The notes below the pieces were generated by a model. That model made no database searches. It saw only the letters and a list, made by a program, of their open reading frames with translations, and was not told the origin of the DNA. Shown here one piece after another: positions 98-7,376 of a stretch of DNA of 32,102 bases. Where the stretch lies: contig JAGCCV010000018.1 in assembly GCA_017651505.1 (NCBI GenBank), positions 1 to 32,102 of the forward strand, read 5' to 3'. Each line of letters starts with the position of its first letter. Position 1 is the stretch's first letter. Source of the DNA: Bacteroidaceae bacterium. Lineage in GTDB: Bacteria; Bacteroidota; Bacteroidia; Bacteroidales; Bacteroidaceae. The position numbers were made by a program, and so were the translations under genes.

Positions 98-1936
98 TTA
101 CTGCCAGTCAGCATTCTGCTTGAAACGTCCCATTGCAGTTACAATCTGGTTGTAAGGAATTGGGAACATAACCCAGTTCTTACCATAGTTGCTATACTTA
201 TTTGGGAAGAATGCACCTTCATAGGTTACATAATCGTTCAATACATCAGCAGCAACACCCCAACGAGCGAGGTCGAACCAACGGTGACCTTCCATACCCA
301 ACTCAGCACGACGTTCAGCACGCAGAGCAGTGATAGCCTCGTCCTTGCTTGCAAATGCAGTGTACAAACCTACGCGGTAGTTACCAGCTGCACCAGCAAC
401 AGTCTTGCCGTTTACCTTGTCATCCAAAGAGTAGGTACCAACTGTTGTAGCGTCAGCCTTTACGAAATCGTTAGCTGCGCGAGCACGTACTTGGTTGATG
501 TAATCCAGAGCACCTGACAGATCACCATCATTGATCAGACATTCAGCATAGAGCAGCAGGATGTCAGCAAAACGAATCACGTGATAGTTCTTTGCTGAAG
601 AAGCAACAGCTGTTGATACTGAAGTAGAACCACGATCGCTGATGTAAGGCAGGTTCTTCTTGTTCATGTACAGACCAGCGTTGTTCGGGTCACGAACCCA
701 ACCGTTGAGGGCTGTAGGAGTACCATAGTCCAGGAAAGGAACGTTGAAACGACCCATTGTGAAGTCGATACGTGGATCCACATAAACAGTCAGGTCAGTC
801 TTTGGAACATCACCAGCAGAAGTAGAAACCATCTGAGTCAGACGTGGCTGAGCACGGTAATCAGCTGTTGACAAAGGCAGACCGTTAGCGTCAACAATGA
901 AGCTGTTAGCGAAGTCATATGAAGGCTGGTAGAATCCCCAACCACCCAAGCCAGATGCACCAGCCTGACCAATTGCAGGGTTAGATGCGATAGCGTTGGT
1001 ATCAGTCTGAGTACCAGAGATGGTCATTTGTACGTCGAATACACCTTCACCACCCCAGTCGCAGTCTGGAGAATTTGCATCATACAGGTCACCATAGTGA
1101 TCGATCAGTTTGTACTTCTGACCCTTAGCGTCAACACCATTGTCAATGATGTCTTTCAACAGAGACTTAGCTTCAGACATCTTAGCTGGGTTAGAGCTCA
1201 TGTTGCCATTGTAAGGAGATGCCCAGTACATGTACATCTTAGCCAAAACAGCCTTAGCCATCCAAGAAGTAGCACGACCATATTCGCCTGTGCTCTTCCA
1301 GTCAGCTGGCAGACCAGCAATAGCTTCCTTCAGGTCAGTCTCAACTTTATCCCATACGTAGATGTAGTTGCCACCTTCATCAATGTTACCAACCTGAGGG
1401 TCAGTGTTTGCCTTATAGTCATCAAGGGTGACGTAAGGAATAGCAGCACCGAACATCTTGATGCCTTCGAACATCCAGACAGCCTTGATGAACTTGGCCT
1501 GAGCCTCGATCACAGCCTTGTTAGGCAGTGCATCGCCCATGTCCTCAGCCATCTTCAACACGTTGTTGGCGCGCTTAACAGCCTCGTAAACAGAGTTCCA
1601 CTTACCAGAAATATAACCATTAGAAGCAGAGAATGTGAAGGTTTCCAACTGAGTCCAGTCTGGCTGGTCACCAGCCGTAGAACCCTTGTTCGCATCACCG
1701 CCTACCACGTCACCATACACGAAGTTGAAGAGAGATCCATAGCCCATCCATGCTGTCTGTGTCATGCTATTGAAAGATGAATAGGCACCGGTAAGCACCA
1801 TGTCTATACCGCTCTCAGTGGTCAGTGTAGCCTCTGACACTGAACCAGCTGGGTCGATTAACAGGAAACTGTCACCGCAACTTGTCATAGTCAGAGAGCC
1901 CAAAGCCATAGCTGAATATAATATTGCTTTTTTCAT
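98..1936 (-). CDS. susD: SusD/RagB family outer-membrane glycan-binding lipoprotein
   Basis: Cell-surface lipoprotein that caps a SusC transporter and binds the incoming oligosaccharide. From the chosen start, residues 1-20 form a lipoprotein signal ending in the lipobox LTMTSC, with Cys20 as the lipidated residue. The body carries the SusD helical (TPR-like) pattern, including the stretch ILLLYAECLINDGDLSGAL and, near the C-terminus, the family hallmark RAERRAELGMEGHRWFDLAR. Length 612 residues is normal. The frame stays open to ATGs at 1966 and 1987, but only the ATG ending at 1936 gives a compact signal peptide; 1966 is the main alternative. It follows susC by about 58 nt in the same transcript and is followed by a terminator. 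The glycan bound cannot be told from sequence; no CAZyme lies beside it in the window, though the locus may continue past the left edge. Confidence 0.93.
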   Translation of the reverse strand: MKKAILYSAMALGSLTMTSCGDSFLLIDPAGSVSEATLTTESGIDMVLTGAYSSFNSMTQTAWMGYGSLFNFVYGDVVGGDANKGSTAGDQPDWTQLETFTFSASNGYISGKWNSVYEAVKRANNVLKMAEDMGDALPNKAVIEAQAKFIKAVWMFEGIKMFGAAIPYVTLDDYKANTDPQVGNIDEGGNYIYVWDKVETDLKEAIAGLPADWKSTGEYGRATSWMAKAVLAKMYMYWASPYNGNMSSNPAKMSEAKSLLKDIIDNGVDAKGQKYKLIDHYGDLYDANSPDCDWGGEGVFDVQMTISGTQTDTNAIASNPAIGQAGASGLGGWGFYQPSYDFANSFIVDANGLPLSTADYRAQPRLTQMVSTSAGDVPKTDLTVYVDPRIDFTMGRFNVPFLDYGTPTALNGWVRDPNNAGLYMNKKNLPYISDRGSTSVSTAVASSAKNYHVIRFADILLLYAECLINDGDLSGALDYINQVRARAANDFVKADATTVGTYSLDDKVNGKTVAGAAGNYRVGLYTAFASKDEAITALRAERRAELGMEGHRWFDLARWGVAADVLNDYVTYEGAFFPNKYSNYGKNWVMFPIPYNQIVTAMGRFKQNADWQ

Positions 1937-1994
1937 ATTGTTCAAATTATTATAATTGTATTTCATATTTAATATCTCACTAATCAACTTATCT

Positions 1995-4900
1995 TTAGAA
2001 GTCGATGTTCACACCGAACAGATACTGACGAGGTACACCGTAGCTACCATAGTCAACACCCTTGGTACGGTCACCGCTCAAGCCGAAGCTGTTAACTTCA
2101 GGATCGAGGCCTTCATAACCAGTGATAGTGAACACGTTAGACAGCTGTGCATATATGCGAATTCGAGACAGAGTCAGTTTGCTTACCCATTTCTTAGGCA
2201 GAGAGTAACCTAATGTCAGGGTCTGCATACGCAGATATGAACCGTTAACTACATAACCAGAGTGAGATACACTTGCTTCAGGAGCTGTGGTACCAAGCAT
2301 CCAGATTGGCAGTGTGCCGTTAGGATTGTTTGTAGGATGCCAAGCCTTTGCAACGCGCTCTTCGCTGTAAGCGTTACCCAACTGACCATAGAGGGTATAG
2401 TACTCGTAGTGCTTGTACAGATCGTTGCCGATTGAGTAATACAGATATGTGCTCAAGTCGAAGTTCTTCCACTGCAGACCGATGTTGAAACCGCCAGTGA
2501 TGTCTGGGTGAGGATTACCAATGATGGTCTGGTCGCCAGAGTCAATCTTACCGTCATGGTTTATATCCTTAAACTTGTAGTGACCAATCCATGTTGTAGC
2601 CTTTTCCTCAACATAGTCTTCGTCACCAGGAACGCCACGACCGGTCAGTGTAACCATGTCGTTAACACCATAAGGCAGTGCGCCATAGTTCAATACTTCC
2701 TCACGTGACTTGTAGATACCATCCAGCTGGTAGCCATAGAACATACCTACAGGCTGACCTTCTCTTGTAAGAGTGATATCAGTGATACGAGAAGAGTAGA
2801 GCAGGTCAGAAGCACCCAGCTTCACAACCTTGTTCTTGTACCAAGAAGCATTAGCATTGATGTTGTAAGATACCTGACCAATCTTGTCTCTCCAACCGAT
2901 AGAGAAGTCGATACCGGTGTTCTTCATGTCACCGATGTTTACGTTTGGCTTGCTACCGGCACCAGCCATTGCTGTCCAAGAAGCAGATACCAACATGTCA
3001 GAAGTCTTCTTGATATAGAAGTCGAAGCTTGAAGTCAACTTGTTGTTGAATGCAGTGAAGTCATAACCAACGTTGAACATCTTGATAGTCTCCCACTTAG
3101 CGCCAGAGTCACCCAAAGAGGTTGCACCATAACCAGTGTTTGCACCTGAGTTAGTACCAGCAATACCATAGAGGTAACTGGTTGCGTTACCATACTGGAA
3201 TGCGTAGTTGTAAGCACCGATGTTAGAGTTACCGGTTGTACCGTAACCAGCGCGGATCTTCAAGTCATCCAACCAGGTTGCATGAGCTTTCTCCATGAAC
3301 TTCTCGTCAGAGATACGCCAACCCAAAGATACTGATGGGAAGGTACCCCAACGGTTAGAGCTTGAGAATCTTGAAGCTGCATCACGACGGATAGTAGCTG
3401 TTACCAGATACTTACCCATATAAGAGTAGTCAGCACGTGCGAAGAGACCGAACATTGTGGTCTTTGAACCCATACCACCACCGTTACCTACGGTTGAGGT
3501 ACCACCATTACCGATGGTCCAAGTGTTAGGATCGTTCTCGAATACATAGTCATAGCGGTATGCGCTGATGTTACGGCCTAAGCCCTGCTTCAAGGTTTCA
3601 GTACCGATCAATACGGTGATATCGTGCTTGTCAGCGATATTGAACTTGTATGATGCAGTGTTAGTCCATTGCCAGCCAAAGCTCCAGTTACCATTTTCAT
3701 CCAATCGGTTACGAGCAGCACCTTCCTTGTCACCTGCGATGGTGATAGGAGAGAAGCTCAGCCCCCAACCTCCATTCAGCGTTACTGCGAACTGTGAACG
3801 CAAGGTCAGACCCTTGATCCAAGGATCCTTCAGCTCAGCGAAGAATGAAGACTGCAGACGGAAGTTACGGTTCCAGTTATTCTTAGAAGCCTCAATACTC
3901 TGAAGAGCTGAGAAGTTACGACCACCATTACCCTGAGAACCTGCCCAGTGACCACCTACAGTATAAGGAGGTACCCATGCGTTCATGGTATAGGTAGAAC
4001 CGAATGCATTACCATCGGCCTGGCCACCACGCTCACCTCTTGTCATCATCAACGCAGCGTTGGTGTTCTGACCAATTGTGAAGTGCTTGGTAGGATTGAA
4101 AGAGGTATTGACACGCAGAGAGTAACGTTCGAAGTTAGAACCCTTTACCGTACCGTTACGATCCTGATATGCCAGAGACATTGAGTACTGGCCTTTTTCG
4201 CCACCACCCATTACAGATAACTCGTGGTTCTGTGACCAACCGGTTCTAACAATCATGTCATACCAGTCAGTACCCTTGCGAGCTTCTTCCTCAGACTTAC
4301 CGAGAATTTCCTTGTTGTAATAGTATGCAGACAGTGCGTATGAATGAGCACCATCTCTCTGATAATCTTTCACCATGCCCTCGTATGAGCCAAAGCGAGC
4401 CATAGCCTCTTCCTTGCTCAAACCTGCAGGAACGATGGTATAAGGCATCTGCAAGTCACCGTTCTTGATAGAACCGAACTGCTGGTGGTTAACAGTGTTG
4501 ATGTCAACACCGAGGATGTCCACCTGGTTCTGCTGGCTCTGCTGAACAGCCTTCATATAGTCCCATGCGCCCAGCATGTGGAAGCCATCGTTAGCCATGG
4601 TAGAAGCAGAAACGTAACCAGAGTAAGATACGCGAACCTTGCCTTCCTTGTTACCCTGCTTGGTAGTGATGATGATGACACCGTTAGCAGCACGCGCACC
4701 GTAGATGGCGGTTGCAGCAGCATCCTTCAACACCTGGAAAGAATCGATATCGTTAGGGTTCACAGAATCTACGTTAACGCCCTGTACACCATCAACGATA
4801 ATCAGAGGGTCAGAACCGTTCACAGATCCGACACCACGGATACGGATGGTAGTACCTGCACCAGGAGCACCAGATGATGATACGAACACACCAGATGCGC

Positions 4901-5399
4901 GACCCTGCAGTGCTTCTGCGAAGGTTGCCACTGGCTGTTCAGCAATAGCGTCGCGTGATACCACAGCCACAGAACCGGTAATATCCTTCTTAGCCTGTGT
5001 ACCGTAACCAACGACTACGACTTCGTCCAAAGTCTCAGCGTCTTCCCTCAAGGTAACTTGCAGAGAGTTCTGGCCATTCTGCAACTGGATTTCTTGAGTG
5101 ATGTAACCGATGTAAGAAACAACAATCACTGCACCGTTAGGCACGCCCTGAATAACAGCGTTACCGTCCATGTCAGTGATTGAACCGATAGTAGTGCCTC
5201 TAACGAGAACGTTGGCACCAATGACTGGACCCATTGCATCGTTAACTGTTACTGTAACTGTGCGTCCGTTTTGCTGAACTGCAGCTACACCTTCAGTTGA
5301 CATTGCGTCCACGCCAGAAGCCATTGCAGGGCTTGCGGCGATCAGGAGCAGGGAAGCTCCACAAAGGAAGGTCCTTTTCCAATTTTTAATGTCATTCAT
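1995..5399 (-). CDS. susC: SusC/RagA family TonB-dependent outer-membrane transporter
   Basis: TonB-dependent beta-barrel that moves SusD-bound oligosaccharide across the outer membrane. Visible order: Sec signal peptide (residues 1-28, ending PAMASG), a carboxypeptidase-D-like regulatory domain (about 45-118, with GANVLVRGTT and GYITQEIQL), a TonB-box-like stretch at 122-134 (ETLDEVVVVGYGT), the plug domain with its VGSVNGSDPLIIVDG and DAAATAIYGARAANGVIII motifs, then a long barrel ending in a terminal aromatic (GVNIDF). Length 1134 residues is typical and no frameshift is seen. It is the first gene of the susCD unit. The only full consensus promoter found upstream lies inside the invertible segment (5730-5761), which gives a leader of about 320 nt. 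Substrate unknown. Confidence 0.95.
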   Translation of the reverse strand: MNDIKNWKRTFLCGASLLLIAASPAMASGVDAMSTEGVAAVQQNGRTVTVTVNDAMGPVIGANVLVRGTTIGSITDMDGNAVIQGVPNGAVIVVSYIGYITQEIQLQNGQNSLQVTLREDAETLDEVVVVGYGTQAKKDITGSVAVVSRDAIAEQPVATFAEALQGRASGVFVSSSGAPGAGTTIRIRGVGSVNGSDPLIIVDGVQGVNVDSVNPNDIDSFQVLKDAAATAIYGARAANGVIIITTKQGNKEGKVRVSYSGYVSASTMANDGFHMLGAWDYMKAVQQSQQNQVDILGVDINTVNHQQFGSIKNGDLQMPYTIVPAGLSKEEAMARFGSYEGMVKDYQRDGAHSYALSAYYYNKEILGKSEEEARKGTDWYDMIVRTGWSQNHELSVMGGGEKGQYSMSLAYQDRNGTVKGSNFERYSLRVNTSFNPTKHFTIGQNTNAALMMTRGERGGQADGNAFGSTYTMNAWVPPYTVGGHWAGSQGNGGRNFSALQSIEASKNNWNRNFRLQSSFFAELKDPWIKGLTLRSQFAVTLNGGWGLSFSPITIAGDKEGAARNRLDENGNWSFGWQWTNTASYKFNIADKHDITVLIGTETLKQGLGRNISAYRYDYVFENDPNTWTIGNGGTSTVGNGGGMGSKTTMFGLFARADYSYMGKYLVTATIRRDAASRFSSSNRWGTFPSVSLGWRISDEKFMEKAHATWLDDLKIRAGYGTTGNSNIGAYNYAFQYGNATSYLYGIAGTNSGANTGYGATSLGDSGAKWETIKMFNVGYDFTAFNNKLTSSFDFYIKKTSDMLVSASWTAMAGAGSKPNVNIGDMKNTGIDFSIGWRDKIGQVSYNINANASWYKNKVVKLGASDLLYSSRITDITLTREGQPVGMFYGYQLDGIYKSREEVLNYGALPYGVNDMVTLTGRGVPGDEDYVEEKATTWIGHYKFKDINHDGKIDSGDQTIIGNPHPDITGGFNIGLQWKNFDLSTYLYYSIGNDLYKHYEYYTLYGQLGNAYSEERVAKAWHPTNNPNGTLPIWMLGTTAPEASVSHSGYVVNGSYLRMQTLTLGYSLPKKWVSKLTLSRIRIYAQLSNVFTITGYEGLDPEVNSFGLSGDRTKGVDYGSYGVPRQYLFGVNIDF

Positions 5400-5445
5400 A
5401 ATAATTTGTTTAAAAGGTTAATATTTAGTTTATTAAACTCTTCCT

Positions 5446-5480
5446 AAAAAAGGGGCAACTGCATTCACATGTGGTTGCCC
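5446..5480 (-). terminator. Putative attenuator hairpin in the susC leader
   Basis: On the minus strand GGGCAAC (5480-5474) pairs perfectly with GTTGCCC (5459-5453) across a 14-nt loop, followed by one C and six T (5451-5446). This is the shape of an intrinsic terminator, placed 46 nt before the susC ATG and downstream of the predicted transcription start. It could stop transcription early, or act only as a leader structure. The 7-bp stem is short, hence the modest confidence. Confidence 0.45.
5459..5474. repeat. 16-bp direct repeat copy 1 (contains CACATGTG)
   Basis: CTGCATTCACATGTGG, identical to 5535-5550. The core CACATGTG is a perfect 8-bp palindrome. Copy 1 forms the loop of the terminator-like hairpin in the susC leader. 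Confidence 0.85.
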
Positions 5481-5534
5481 ACAAACATTAACTTAAATTT
5501 TTATTTATCCTTTAAAGTCTTAATAACGGGCTGG

Positions 5535-5550
5535 CTGCATTCACATGTGG
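5535..5550. repeat. 16-bp direct repeat copy 2 (contains CACATGTG)
   Basis: Exact second copy of the motif at 5459-5474, offset by 76 bp. Both copies are followed closely by TGCCC on the plus strand, but copy 2 lacks the long stem and T run of copy 1. It may be a repeated regulator site or a repeated RNA element. Confidence 0.85.
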
Positions 5551-5690
5551 CTGATGCCCTTTTCAATATTTTTTTAATTTTGTTTCTTTTTTCTTCTCAA
5601 AAAGGCATTCTTCACCCATTTCTAAATGAAGGTAAAAAACGCACTATAATTGCTAAATACACTTAAAATTCAGCATATTAAATCAAAATA

Positions 5691-5715
5691 TTCCTTTACT
5701 TAGCAGTAAAAAGAA
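5691..5715 (+). repeat. Left inverted repeat (IR-L) of the invertible segment
   Basis: The 25-bp site fits TTCNNTTACTTAGCAGTAAANNGAA. Its 15-bp core (5696-5710) is the exact reverse complement of 6774-6788, and TTC/GAA match on both flanks; the four differing positions are all transitions. The site is itself an imperfect dyad (TTTACT, TAGC spacer, AGTAAA), as expected for a tyrosine recombinase crossover site. Confidence 0.85.
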
Positions 5716-5729
5716 TGGAATTGACCCTA

Positions 5730-5761
5730 CAAACTTAAAGGTTTTTTAATAAACAAGCAAA
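5730..5761 (-). promoter_or_regulatory. Consensus sigma-ABfr promoter facing susC, inside the invertible segment
   Basis: On the minus strand TTTG (5761-5758), a 20-bp spacer, then TAAGTTTG (5737-5730), an exact match to the Bacteroidetes TTTG-N19-21-TAnnTTTG consensus. The start of transcription would be near 5723, so the transcript crosses IR-L and runs about 320 nt to the susC ATG. No other full match was found between IR-L and susC. Confidence 0.75.
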
Positions 5762-5833
5762 TATTATTAGGCTTTTTTTTCATTCAACGCTATTTTTTTT
5801 CTTAACCTAAACATGTAACTTAACTATATTATT

Positions 5834-6766
5834 ATGCGGAGACCGTCGAAATCGGTGCAGTTTATATTGCGTGAATTATATAGGCAGCATAGATCCAATA
5901 AAAAGTGGAATACAGCTTCACTATATCGTTCTGTCATGATGAAAGTCAATCTTTATTCTAAGGGGAAAGAAGTTCCTATTCGTGCCATTTCTGCCAGCTG
6001 GTTGAAGTCGTTTGAGAGTTATCTACGTTCTTCTGGCAATTGTTGGAACACCATATCTACTTATATGAGGATTCTTAATGCTGCTTACAACGAGGCGGTG
6101 ATGACCAATAATGCACCTTTTCGCCCTTTATTATTTAATAAGGTATATACGGGTGTGGTAGCTGACCGACAGAATGCGCTGGATATTCAAGACATGGAGA
6201 GGCTTGTTCAGCTTTGCTTTAGTGAGCAACCTATATTGAAACCACGATTACATAGAACCCTACAGTATTTTGTGTTAATGTTTTTGCTTAGAGGGATGCC
6301 TTTTGTGGATATGGCCTATCTGAAGAAAAAAGAGCTAAAGCACAATGTTATCTCATACCGCCGTATGAAAACAGGCAGGCCGCTTACCGTTGAACTGGAT
6401 AAGCCAGCCCTCATGTTGCTACAATCCTTGGCCAGCCGCAATGAATCATCTCCCTATCTTTTCCCTTTCCTGCACTATTCCGATGGATCAGAGGAAGCGC
6501 ACAGGGAATATAAAACGGCACTGAGAAGCTTTAACAATCATCTTGAGGCGATAGGAAAAGTGTTGGGGATAAAACAAAAGATAACCACTTATACAGCCCG
6601 ACATACTTGGGTAACCATAGCCTTTAACTGTAATATCAGCACCGCTGTCATTTCTCAATCAGTGGGACATTCGTCCATAAAGGTCACTGAAATCTATCTT
6701 AAACCCTTCCAACAAGCAATTATCAATGATGCCAACAAGCAAGTAATCCAGCAAGTTATGCATTGA
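5834..6766 (+). CDS. Tyrosine site-specific recombinase (probable DNA invertase)
   Basis: Cuts and rejoins DNA through a 3'-phosphotyrosine intermediate. An N-terminal SAM-like core-binding domain (about 5-110) precedes the catalytic domain (about 115-305). The active-site set is visible: Arg153 (LLRGMPF), Lys179 (RMKTGRP), Arg256 (YTARHTW), His279 (VGHSS) and nucleophile Tyr288 (EIYLKP). The box-II residue three before Arg256 is Tyr rather than His, which is common in Bacteroidetes relatives. At 310 residues it is complete, with a short N-terminus like the Bacteroides invertases (Tsr/Mpi type) that flip surface-gene promoters. It is transcribed away from susC and is enclosed by 25-bp inverted repeats, so these are the likely substrates. 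A phage or transposon integrase is less likely because no cargo or tRNA target adjoins it. Confidence 0.93.
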   Translation: MRRPSKSVQFILRELYRQHRSNKKWNTASLYRSVMMKVNLYSKGKEVPIRAISASWLKSFESYLRSSGNCWNTISTYMRILNAAYNEAVMTNNAPFRPLLFNKVYTGVVADRQNALDIQDMERLVQLCFSEQPILKPRLHRTLQYFVLMFLLRGMPFVDMAYLKKKELKHNVISYRRMKTGRPLTVELDKPALMLLQSLASRNESSPYLFPFLHYSDGSEEAHREYKTALRSFNNHLEAIGKVLGIKQKITTYTARHTWVTIAFNCNISTAVISQSVGHSSIKVTEIYLKPFQQAIINDANKQVIQQVMH

Positions 6767-6768
6767 TT

Positions 6769-6793
6769 TTCCCTTTACTGCTAAGTAAGAGAA
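6769..6793 (-). repeat. Right inverted repeat (IR-R) of the invertible segment
   Basis: Inverted counterpart of 5691-5715 with a 15-bp identical core at 6774-6788 and matching TTC/GAA flanks. It begins two bases after the recombinase stop codon (6764-6766). Confidence 0.85.
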
Positions 6794-7043
6794 ATTTACA
6801 ATCTTTTGCTATTTCCTTCCTCAATGGTTTACCTAAACATCAAATAATTGTAATTGTGATACCTAATCAACGATACAAAAATACAAAAAATTAAATAATA
6901 GGATTATTGTTGTCCACTATTAATAGCAAATTCTCTTTGTTTTTTTTAATTATAGTTGGTTACGGAGCTTTTTCAAGAATTGACAATGACCTATGGTGGT
7001 TTTAGTGATTTTTTTATAAGATACAAAAAAAGACGAGTAGATA

Positions 7044-7080: not shown

Positions 7081-7214
7081 TTTTGAATGAGGTCCTAATT
7101 TTTTAAATGTTTCGACATTTTATTCATTCATAACTTTGCATTTTGGATTATTATTTTGATGTAAGGGACTTCGTTCCAAGACAATGAGAGGATGCTATAA
7201 TGGCATCCTCTTTT
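7081..7214 (+). ncRNA. Candidate small non-coding RNA
   Basis: The stretch between a consensus promoter and an intrinsic terminator, about 135 nt. It contains only frames of 8 codons or fewer but has three hairpins: AAATGT-TTCG-ACATTT (7105-7120, a UUCG tetraloop), GGGAC-TTC-GTTCC (7165-7177), and the terminator stem (7187-7211). No known RNA family was recognised. A shorter form starting near 7145 from the second -7 box is possible. Confidence 0.45.
7187..7214 (+). terminator. Intrinsic terminator of the candidate small RNA
   Basis: AGAGGATGC (7187-7195) pairs perfectly with GCATCCTCT (7203-7211) across a 7-nt loop and runs into TTTT. No plus-strand protein gene ends nearby. Confidence 0.7.
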
Positions 7215-7223
7215 ATGTTAACA

Positions 7224-7260
7224 CAGAAAGGGACGCTGCATCACGCAGTGTCCCTTTCTG
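7224..7260. repeat. Strong 16-bp hairpin, possible bidirectional terminator
   Basis: 7224-7239 pairs with 7245-7260 over 16 bp with a single G-U pair and a 5-nt loop. It lacks a T run on either side. It could mark the end of the minus-strand speA/sigma transcript, about 115 nt past the last gene. Confidence 0.5.
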
Positions 7261-7376
7261 TTAGTTAGTGTAATCAAGTTTTGAGAGAATGAAACTTCAC
7301 AGTTTCGTAAGTCACTAACCATATAATGTTTAAAGCAAATGAAAATGTTATATTAATAAAGCAAATGAAAAAACTT

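Follow-up and report, generated by a model that had tools for sequence, protein, structure and literature searches.

The window, by which we mean the whole analysed stretch of 32,102 nucleotides (contig JAGCCV010000018.1 of a Bacteroidaceae bacterium, own genome G000), contains a susC-susD pair, preceded by a block of 1.1 kb that is bounded by inverted repeats and encloses a recombinase gene. The features, as far as they concern this block and the genes next to it, are:

98–1987, minus strand: susD, the next gene after susC on the same strand
1995–5399, minus strand: susC, encoding a SusC/RagA TonB-linked outer membrane protein; predicted target of the switch
5400–5690, minus strand: susC leader, from the left repeat to the susC start, with two hairpin-like repeats; homologous leaders are present in the related genomes G006 (contig C30), G113, G135 and G101
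5691–5715, plus strand: left inverted repeat, a predicted crossover site, TTTAC-TTAGCA-GTAAA (two arms and a 6-bp spacer)
5730–5761, minus strand: putative outward promoter, TTTG-N20-TAAGTTTG, of the Bacteroides-type consensus, reading through the left repeat to susC
5834–6766, plus strand: tyrosine recombinase of 310 amino acids between the repeats, recognised as an open reading frame with Pfam domains
6769–6793, minus strand: right inverted repeat, a predicted crossover site, with the same spacer as the left repeat when read from outside to inside

The recombinase reading frame is intact, and two bases separate its stop codon from the right repeat, so that one complete tyrosine recombinase gene is enclosed, as an earlier note on this DNA had described. 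Both Pfam domains, Phage_int_SAM_5 and Phage_integrase, score above the curated cut-offs (PF00589, 49.2 bits versus 27.1; PF13102, 54.8 versus 22.3); with these tyrosine recombinase domains, the enzyme is not a serine recombinase. No NCBIfam family scores above its cut-off for this protein. It resembles two solved XerC/XerA-type recombinases, the sequence matches being weak. Across 11 aligned relatives, R256, H279 and Y288 do not vary, and they line up with the matching residues of 4a8e, while the Arg I position aligns to the invariant Pro156 (11 rows), with the near-invariant Arg153 located three residues earlier. Similar proteins occur in 76 plasmid and 39 phage records, none of them reaching 60% identity; searching plasmids with the DNA found nothing, and a scan of viral contigs revealed no relative. 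A decayed phage or plasmid integrase was rejected as an identity for the gene, which is intact and whose layout recurs on chromosomal-looking contigs. An RNA element was rejected as well, the window containing no Rfam match at the gathering thresholds.

The two repeats are 25 nucleotides each and are identical at 21 of 25 positions (84%), the four differences all being transitions; a 15-bp core, TTACTTAGCAGTAAA, is the same in both. Each repeat is an imperfect dyad, and the sites lie close to the promoter or to the end of the recombinase gene. The sequence and the repeat search thus reproduce what the earlier note had said of the sites: their length, their identical core, their four transitions and their dyad form. 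When both flanks were dinucleotide-shuffled, one run out of 500 contained a 25-mer pair with at least 21 matches, and three out of 200 contained an exact inverted match of 15 or longer. Because the flanks are rich in A+T, the pair judged alone is only suggestive; it becomes convincing because homologous loci hold such pairs in the corresponding positions, built on another core. By eye, no direct duplication was seen in the bases that border the arms.

These two sites are the only ones with the exact core in the own assembly (60% complete), and a master invertase with many sites was rejected on this ground. The search for further copies of the site, proposed in the earlier note, yields three places that match the core with two mismatches, one of which is the start of contig C62. 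There (G000:C62, locus L135, positions 1–115), a second cassette end with the spacer TTCGTA and a core different from that of the window adjoins Rnf/Nqr-type genes. The closest counterpart of this end is the G006:C30 cassette (82% over 106 bp), a resemblance that suggests that cassettes have swapped partners. A lone site, at position 7136 of G027:C1 (L145), is located beside a recombinase remnant; its spacer, TGCGAA, is reversed with respect to the TTCGCA of the similar-looking G101 site.

The outward promoter and the susC leader

The promoter sequence TTTGCTTGTTTATTAAAAAACCTTTAAGTTTG is located between the left repeat and the recombinase gene, on the minus strand. It fits the Bacteroides consensus of TTTG at -33 and TANNTTTGY at -7, as given in the accessible text of PMC8748976, and the susC start codon follows 330 bp further along. 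With the promoter inside the repeats and aimed outwards at susCD, the state predicted for the window is ON. Searching nine genomes for this promoter type, allowing one mismatch at most, gave 16 matches: six in cassettes, eight before susC-type starts where no repeat pair was detected, and two (G029:C37 and G121:C48) before a gene other than susC, so the pattern is not exclusive to susC. In the group of eight, the promoter type is located 188–202 bp upstream of paralogous susC starts (G029, G121, G027, G135, G101, G113, G006:C75 and, in the own genome, G000:C89). These eight genes have nearly the same signal region, and their promoter is apparently fixed, no repeat pair spanning it at 16 of 17 matches. 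This test recovers four of five cassette controls and leaves the window's own, weaker pair below the threshold, so a degenerate pair at the paralogous promoters could escape it. Since the same promoter type sits upstream of paralogous susC genes, the window promoter is in all likelihood a susC promoter that an invertible cassette has captured.

In the leader, the hairpin-like repeats at about 5453–5480 and 5528–5559 (minus strand) share the sequence CACATGTGAATGCAG, which, with at most one mismatch, is also present twice in the leaders of G006:C30, G113, G135 and G101. The first of these hairpins folds better than shuffled sequences (z -2.55), the second does not (z -0.64). The susD gene presumably forms part of the susC operon. 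Elsewhere in the window, a non-coding stretch (7227–7370) lies beside a small gene that is itself next to a sigma-70-type gene. This stretch is behind many of the genus-wide DNA matches listed (up to 94% identity) and matches no Rfam family at the gathering threshold.

Orientation of the block in related genomes

Within the genus comparison set of 158 genomes, a cassette of this type upstream of susC, with a homologous leader, is present in four genomes besides that of the window: G006 (C30), G113, G135 and G101. The neighbouring SusC protein is 90% identical in G006:C30 and 80% identical in G101, while the G113 and G135 contigs end inside susC. In G101, homology continues unbroken through the left repeat (window positions 5201–5798), so the block has the orientation of the window. 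On the susC side, homology extends as far as 5715 in G113, 5714 in G006:C30 and 5715 in G135; on the cassette side, it begins on the other strand, at 5691, 5690 and 5689, respectively. The cassette-side homology ends at 6793 in G006:C30 and at 6794 in G135; the G113 alignment fades at 6737. The susC leader of these three genomes is joined to the opposite end of the cassette, with the breakpoints in the repeats, and as the homology on both sides ends at the repeats, the block has been reversed between them. Both orientations are found as a contrast between species, in assemblies that are incomplete. By promoter direction, the window and G101 are predicted to be ON, and G006:C30, G113 and G135 to be OFF. 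The locus in opposite orientation, which the earlier note had proposed to look for, is thus present in relatives, and these support its self-flipping cassette upstream of susC; what it had missed is the outward promoter, the element that gives the switch its purpose.

In G101 the recombinase gene is fragmented, so that this locus may be locked; both of its repeats are perfect. The outer (distal) flank differs among the five susC loci, and the type of cassette next to the orthologous susC is different in G000 and G006. The closest recombinase found (69% identical) is that of G006:C1, where the promoter is aimed at another gene and only the left repeat is intact. On the same contig (L036, about 262–290), an end resembling an arm of the right repeat is joined directly to the interior of a susC gene, the join falling where arm and spacer meet. 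The piece of susC at this junction matches contig C75 at 277 of 280 positions and is therefore not a plain copy; ectopic recombination and an assembly chimera are candidate readings of the junction.

Two layouts in one recombinase family

The survey comprised 97 loci, made up of 95 stretches around homologous recombinases of the genus, the window and the Tidjanibacter locus L056. An inverton is located just downstream of the gene in 69 of them, 18 enclose the gene and 10 are without a layout call. In the adjacent type, the first site is found at a median of 10 bp past the stop codon. The survey rule called for an inverted repeat matching at 16 of 17 bases, with sites at most 300 bp before and at most 420 bp after the gene. 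The window was classed as enclosed by hand because its own repeat (15/17 in the best 17-mer) falls below this rule, and so were L275 and L278, where long inverted gene copies swamp the repeat finder; looser pairs around L222 and L224 (not site-like) and L291 are uncounted owing to the distance limits. On inspection, L291 (G024), one of the ten loci without a call, is enclosed with an extra gene inside: at about 9–2393 of G024:C105, a 2.4-kb cassette encloses an OmpA-family gene plus the recombinase. The broken G101 locus (L130) is outside the 97. In the window, the repeats flank the gene on both sides and the inverton is not downstream, so its layout is not that of the adjacent type. The usual position of the invertase, outside the flipped DNA, had been stated in the earlier note and agrees both with the 69 of 97 loci and with the accessible text of PMC8748976 and PMC12118408.

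On the tree of the 97, not counting the 10 uncalled rows, enclosed and adjacent layouts are separated by one change. A first tree contained 86 of the 97 rows, 11 reading frames being left out by a start rule, and a second tree contained all 97. In the first, the enclosing side consists of 22 rows (18 enclosed and four without a call), with an SH-aLRT value of 87. Several rows have long branches, which make single placements unsure. Two loci on the enclosing side, L261 and L266, have no recognisable repeat pair. Loss of the repeats where the recombinase is kept, the case that the earlier note had named as speaking against it, is thus real for a few members: L261, L266 and the right side of G006:C1. 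One enzyme family holds two architectures, the inverton beside the gene and the gene within the inverton.

The enclosed class was set without the use of promoters. An outward promoter is present on the 5′ side of the recombinase in 18 of the 18 enclosed loci tested and an inward one in none, where shuffles lead to an expectation of 0.15. As against these 18 of 18, the strict promoter pattern is found in only 7 of 69 adjacent invertons, so most adjacent ones would have to use divergent promoters or none. The left and right spacers are the same in all of 20 enclosed loci (the 18 classed as enclosed in the survey, together with L291 and the fragmented G101 locus), with nine spacer sequences among the loci. 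When spacers are paired at random, the mean is 4.0 agreements and the maximum 10 (10,000 shuffles); the observed agreement is partly built in, because most of the loci were picked by a rule that itself called for agreement at 16 of 17 bases.

Apart from those in the susC group, enclosed cassettes face large lipoproteins starting with MNKK(F/Y)L...SCKDYDDDI or similar, the exceptions being G013, where no such lipoprotein gene was seen, and G145, where the contig ends before any target. We take these lipoproteins to be S-layer-like, in part because of the fit of repeats of the G092 type. Pfam and NCBIfam did not name the three lipoprotein genes tested as S-layer. The repeats of G092, for example, fit CCGTTACCTABVRAGTAAC, which the accessible text of PMC12118408 gives as the repeat consensus of the BT1927 S-layer loci of B. 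thetaiotaomicron. In 11 S-layer-like loci with a single target and both repeats (10 from the survey and L291), the promoter always points away from the target, the predicted OFF state; a rare ON state would explain this uniformity, which gives no orientation contrast. In G088 (L308, contig C112, 7493–15669), two S-layer-like genes of 1097 and 1049 amino acids, 41% identical to each other, flank the cassette in opposite directions, a layout from which an either/or exchange of S-layers is predicted. A similar layout is present in G092 (L306/L307, contig C5), with two identical S-layer-like genes of 964 amino acids in inverted orientation.

Proposed working, alternatives and known systems

We consider it very likely that the region 5691–6793 is a self-contained invertible promoter cassette, in which the enclosed recombinase reverses a 1.1-kb block that includes itself. 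The repeats, the intact enzyme, the promoter, the opposite orientations between species with breakpoints in the repeats and the layout recurring on one side of the tree are all seen in the sequences. The enclosed enzyme itself would act on the two repeats, turning the whole block, and inversion would take place within a population. In the orientation of the window, the promoter would fire through the left repeat into the susC leader, turning susCD ON; in the other, it would fire away and the 3′ end of the recombinase gene would face susC, leaving susCD OFF. Expression of susCD would in this way follow the orientation of the cassette. As the enzyme turns with its own DNA, its transcript would run towards the susC leader when susCD is OFF and in the opposite direction when susCD is ON, and expression of the recombinase may depend on the state of the switch.

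Three other explanations were weighed. The repeats could be crossover sites for another recombinase that flips the block in trans, with the enclosed gene a passenger. Such drivers have precedents in the Bacteroides global invertases Mpi, Tsr0667 and Tsr19, which act on distant sites (PMC4747536, accessible text), and G101 combines a broken recombinase with two perfect repeats. Against this, 18 of the 97 loci, as classed by the survey rule, keep repeats and enclosed recombinase together, and these 18 share one side of the tree; moreover, the exact core is present nowhere else in the 60% complete own assembly, so we regard a driver in trans as unlikely. It is very unlikely that the block is a mobile element, with the repeats as its terminal repeats and the opposite orientations as independent insertions. 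Independent insertion would not give a susC-side leader that is homologous up to the same repeat in four of four relatives, the outward promoter invariably lies 5′ of the recombinase and no direct duplication is visible by eye next to the two arms, although the distal flank does differ between species, as does the type of cassette beside the orthologous susC in G000 and G006.

Still less probable is a role of the repeats as operators, by which the recombinase would regulate itself without present inversion. The imperfect dyad in each site and the closeness of the sites to the promoter or the gene end would suit operators, but the block is reversed in three relatives with breakpoints in the repeats, and the sites have an arm-spacer-arm layout in which the spacer agrees within loci and differs between them.

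When the invertible promoter cassette is compared with described systems, the adjacent-type invertible promoters of the Bacteroidales (capsule, EPS and resistance loci; PMC8748976, PMC12118408 and PMC4747536, accessible text) are similar in their GTTAC/GTAAC-type repeats, their -33/-7 promoter and their surface-gene targets. There, the tyrosine invertase and the inverton are side by side (PMC8748976, PMC12118408), and invertases near invertons are generally not placed to be driven by the promoter of the inverton (PMC11892184). The invertase is outside an inverton of about 280–345 bp in the adjacent type (PMC12118408), whereas in the window it is inside one of 1.1 kb. The BT1927-type S-layer loci are comparable in that, apart from the susC group, the enclosed relatives mostly face S-layer-like genes. 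They differ from the window in their S-layer target and in the repeat consensus given above, the window having a SusC/SusD target and TTTAC-N6-GTAAA, with other arms and another spacer length; the accessible description of these loci places the integrase 'near', while in the window it is enclosed.

The H segment of Hin shares with the window the position of the invertase inside its own segment, the window gene being reversed together with its repeats in relatives. An outward promoter is likewise part of the H segment. The enzymes differ in type, Hin being a serine recombinase and that of the window a tyrosine recombinase, and in the window the promoter lies 5′ of the enzyme. As the hin gene lies within the segment that Hin inverts (PMC5903667, accessible text), the contrast drawn in the earlier note between an invertase inside the flipped DNA and the usual layout holds for the window and has a precedent; that enclosure marks one side of the recombinase tree goes beyond the note. 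Tsr0667 of B. fragilis is a global enzyme, acting on three SusC/SusD clusters by shufflon-type inversions and on nine other regions, unlike the enclosed enzyme of the window. It is a tyrosine recombinase. Its switching of SusC/SusD genes, as a site-specific recombinase, is described in PMC4747536. The pneumococcal tyrosine invertase PsrA is encoded within the cod locus that it rearranges (PMC7096588, accessible text); PsrA exchanges hsdS coding segments, whereas the window would turn a promoter. In the accessible open-licence literature, no description was found of a tyrosine invertase enclosed together with a promoter upstream of susC. Invertible promoters and an enclosed invertase (Hin) are thus already known, and for S-layer loci enclosure may have been published before; to the extent of those accessible texts, the enclosed tyrosine invertase with a promoter at susC is apparently new.

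For the family, we put forward tentatively that, on a single occasion, a group of tyrosine invertases came to lie within its own invertible promoter, becoming an autonomous module of site, promoter, enzyme and site that was coupled to unrelated surface genes, namely those of S-layer proteins, alternative S-layer pairs and SusCD, and whose state may feed back on expression of the invertase and on the rate of flipping. With two layouts in one enzyme family, it becomes testable whether enclosure leads to a feedback on flipping that depends on the state. For the organism, the locus would be a phase switch of SusCD with enzyme, sites and promoter contained in about 1.1 kb, easily tested and possibly reusable as a minimal genetic switch.
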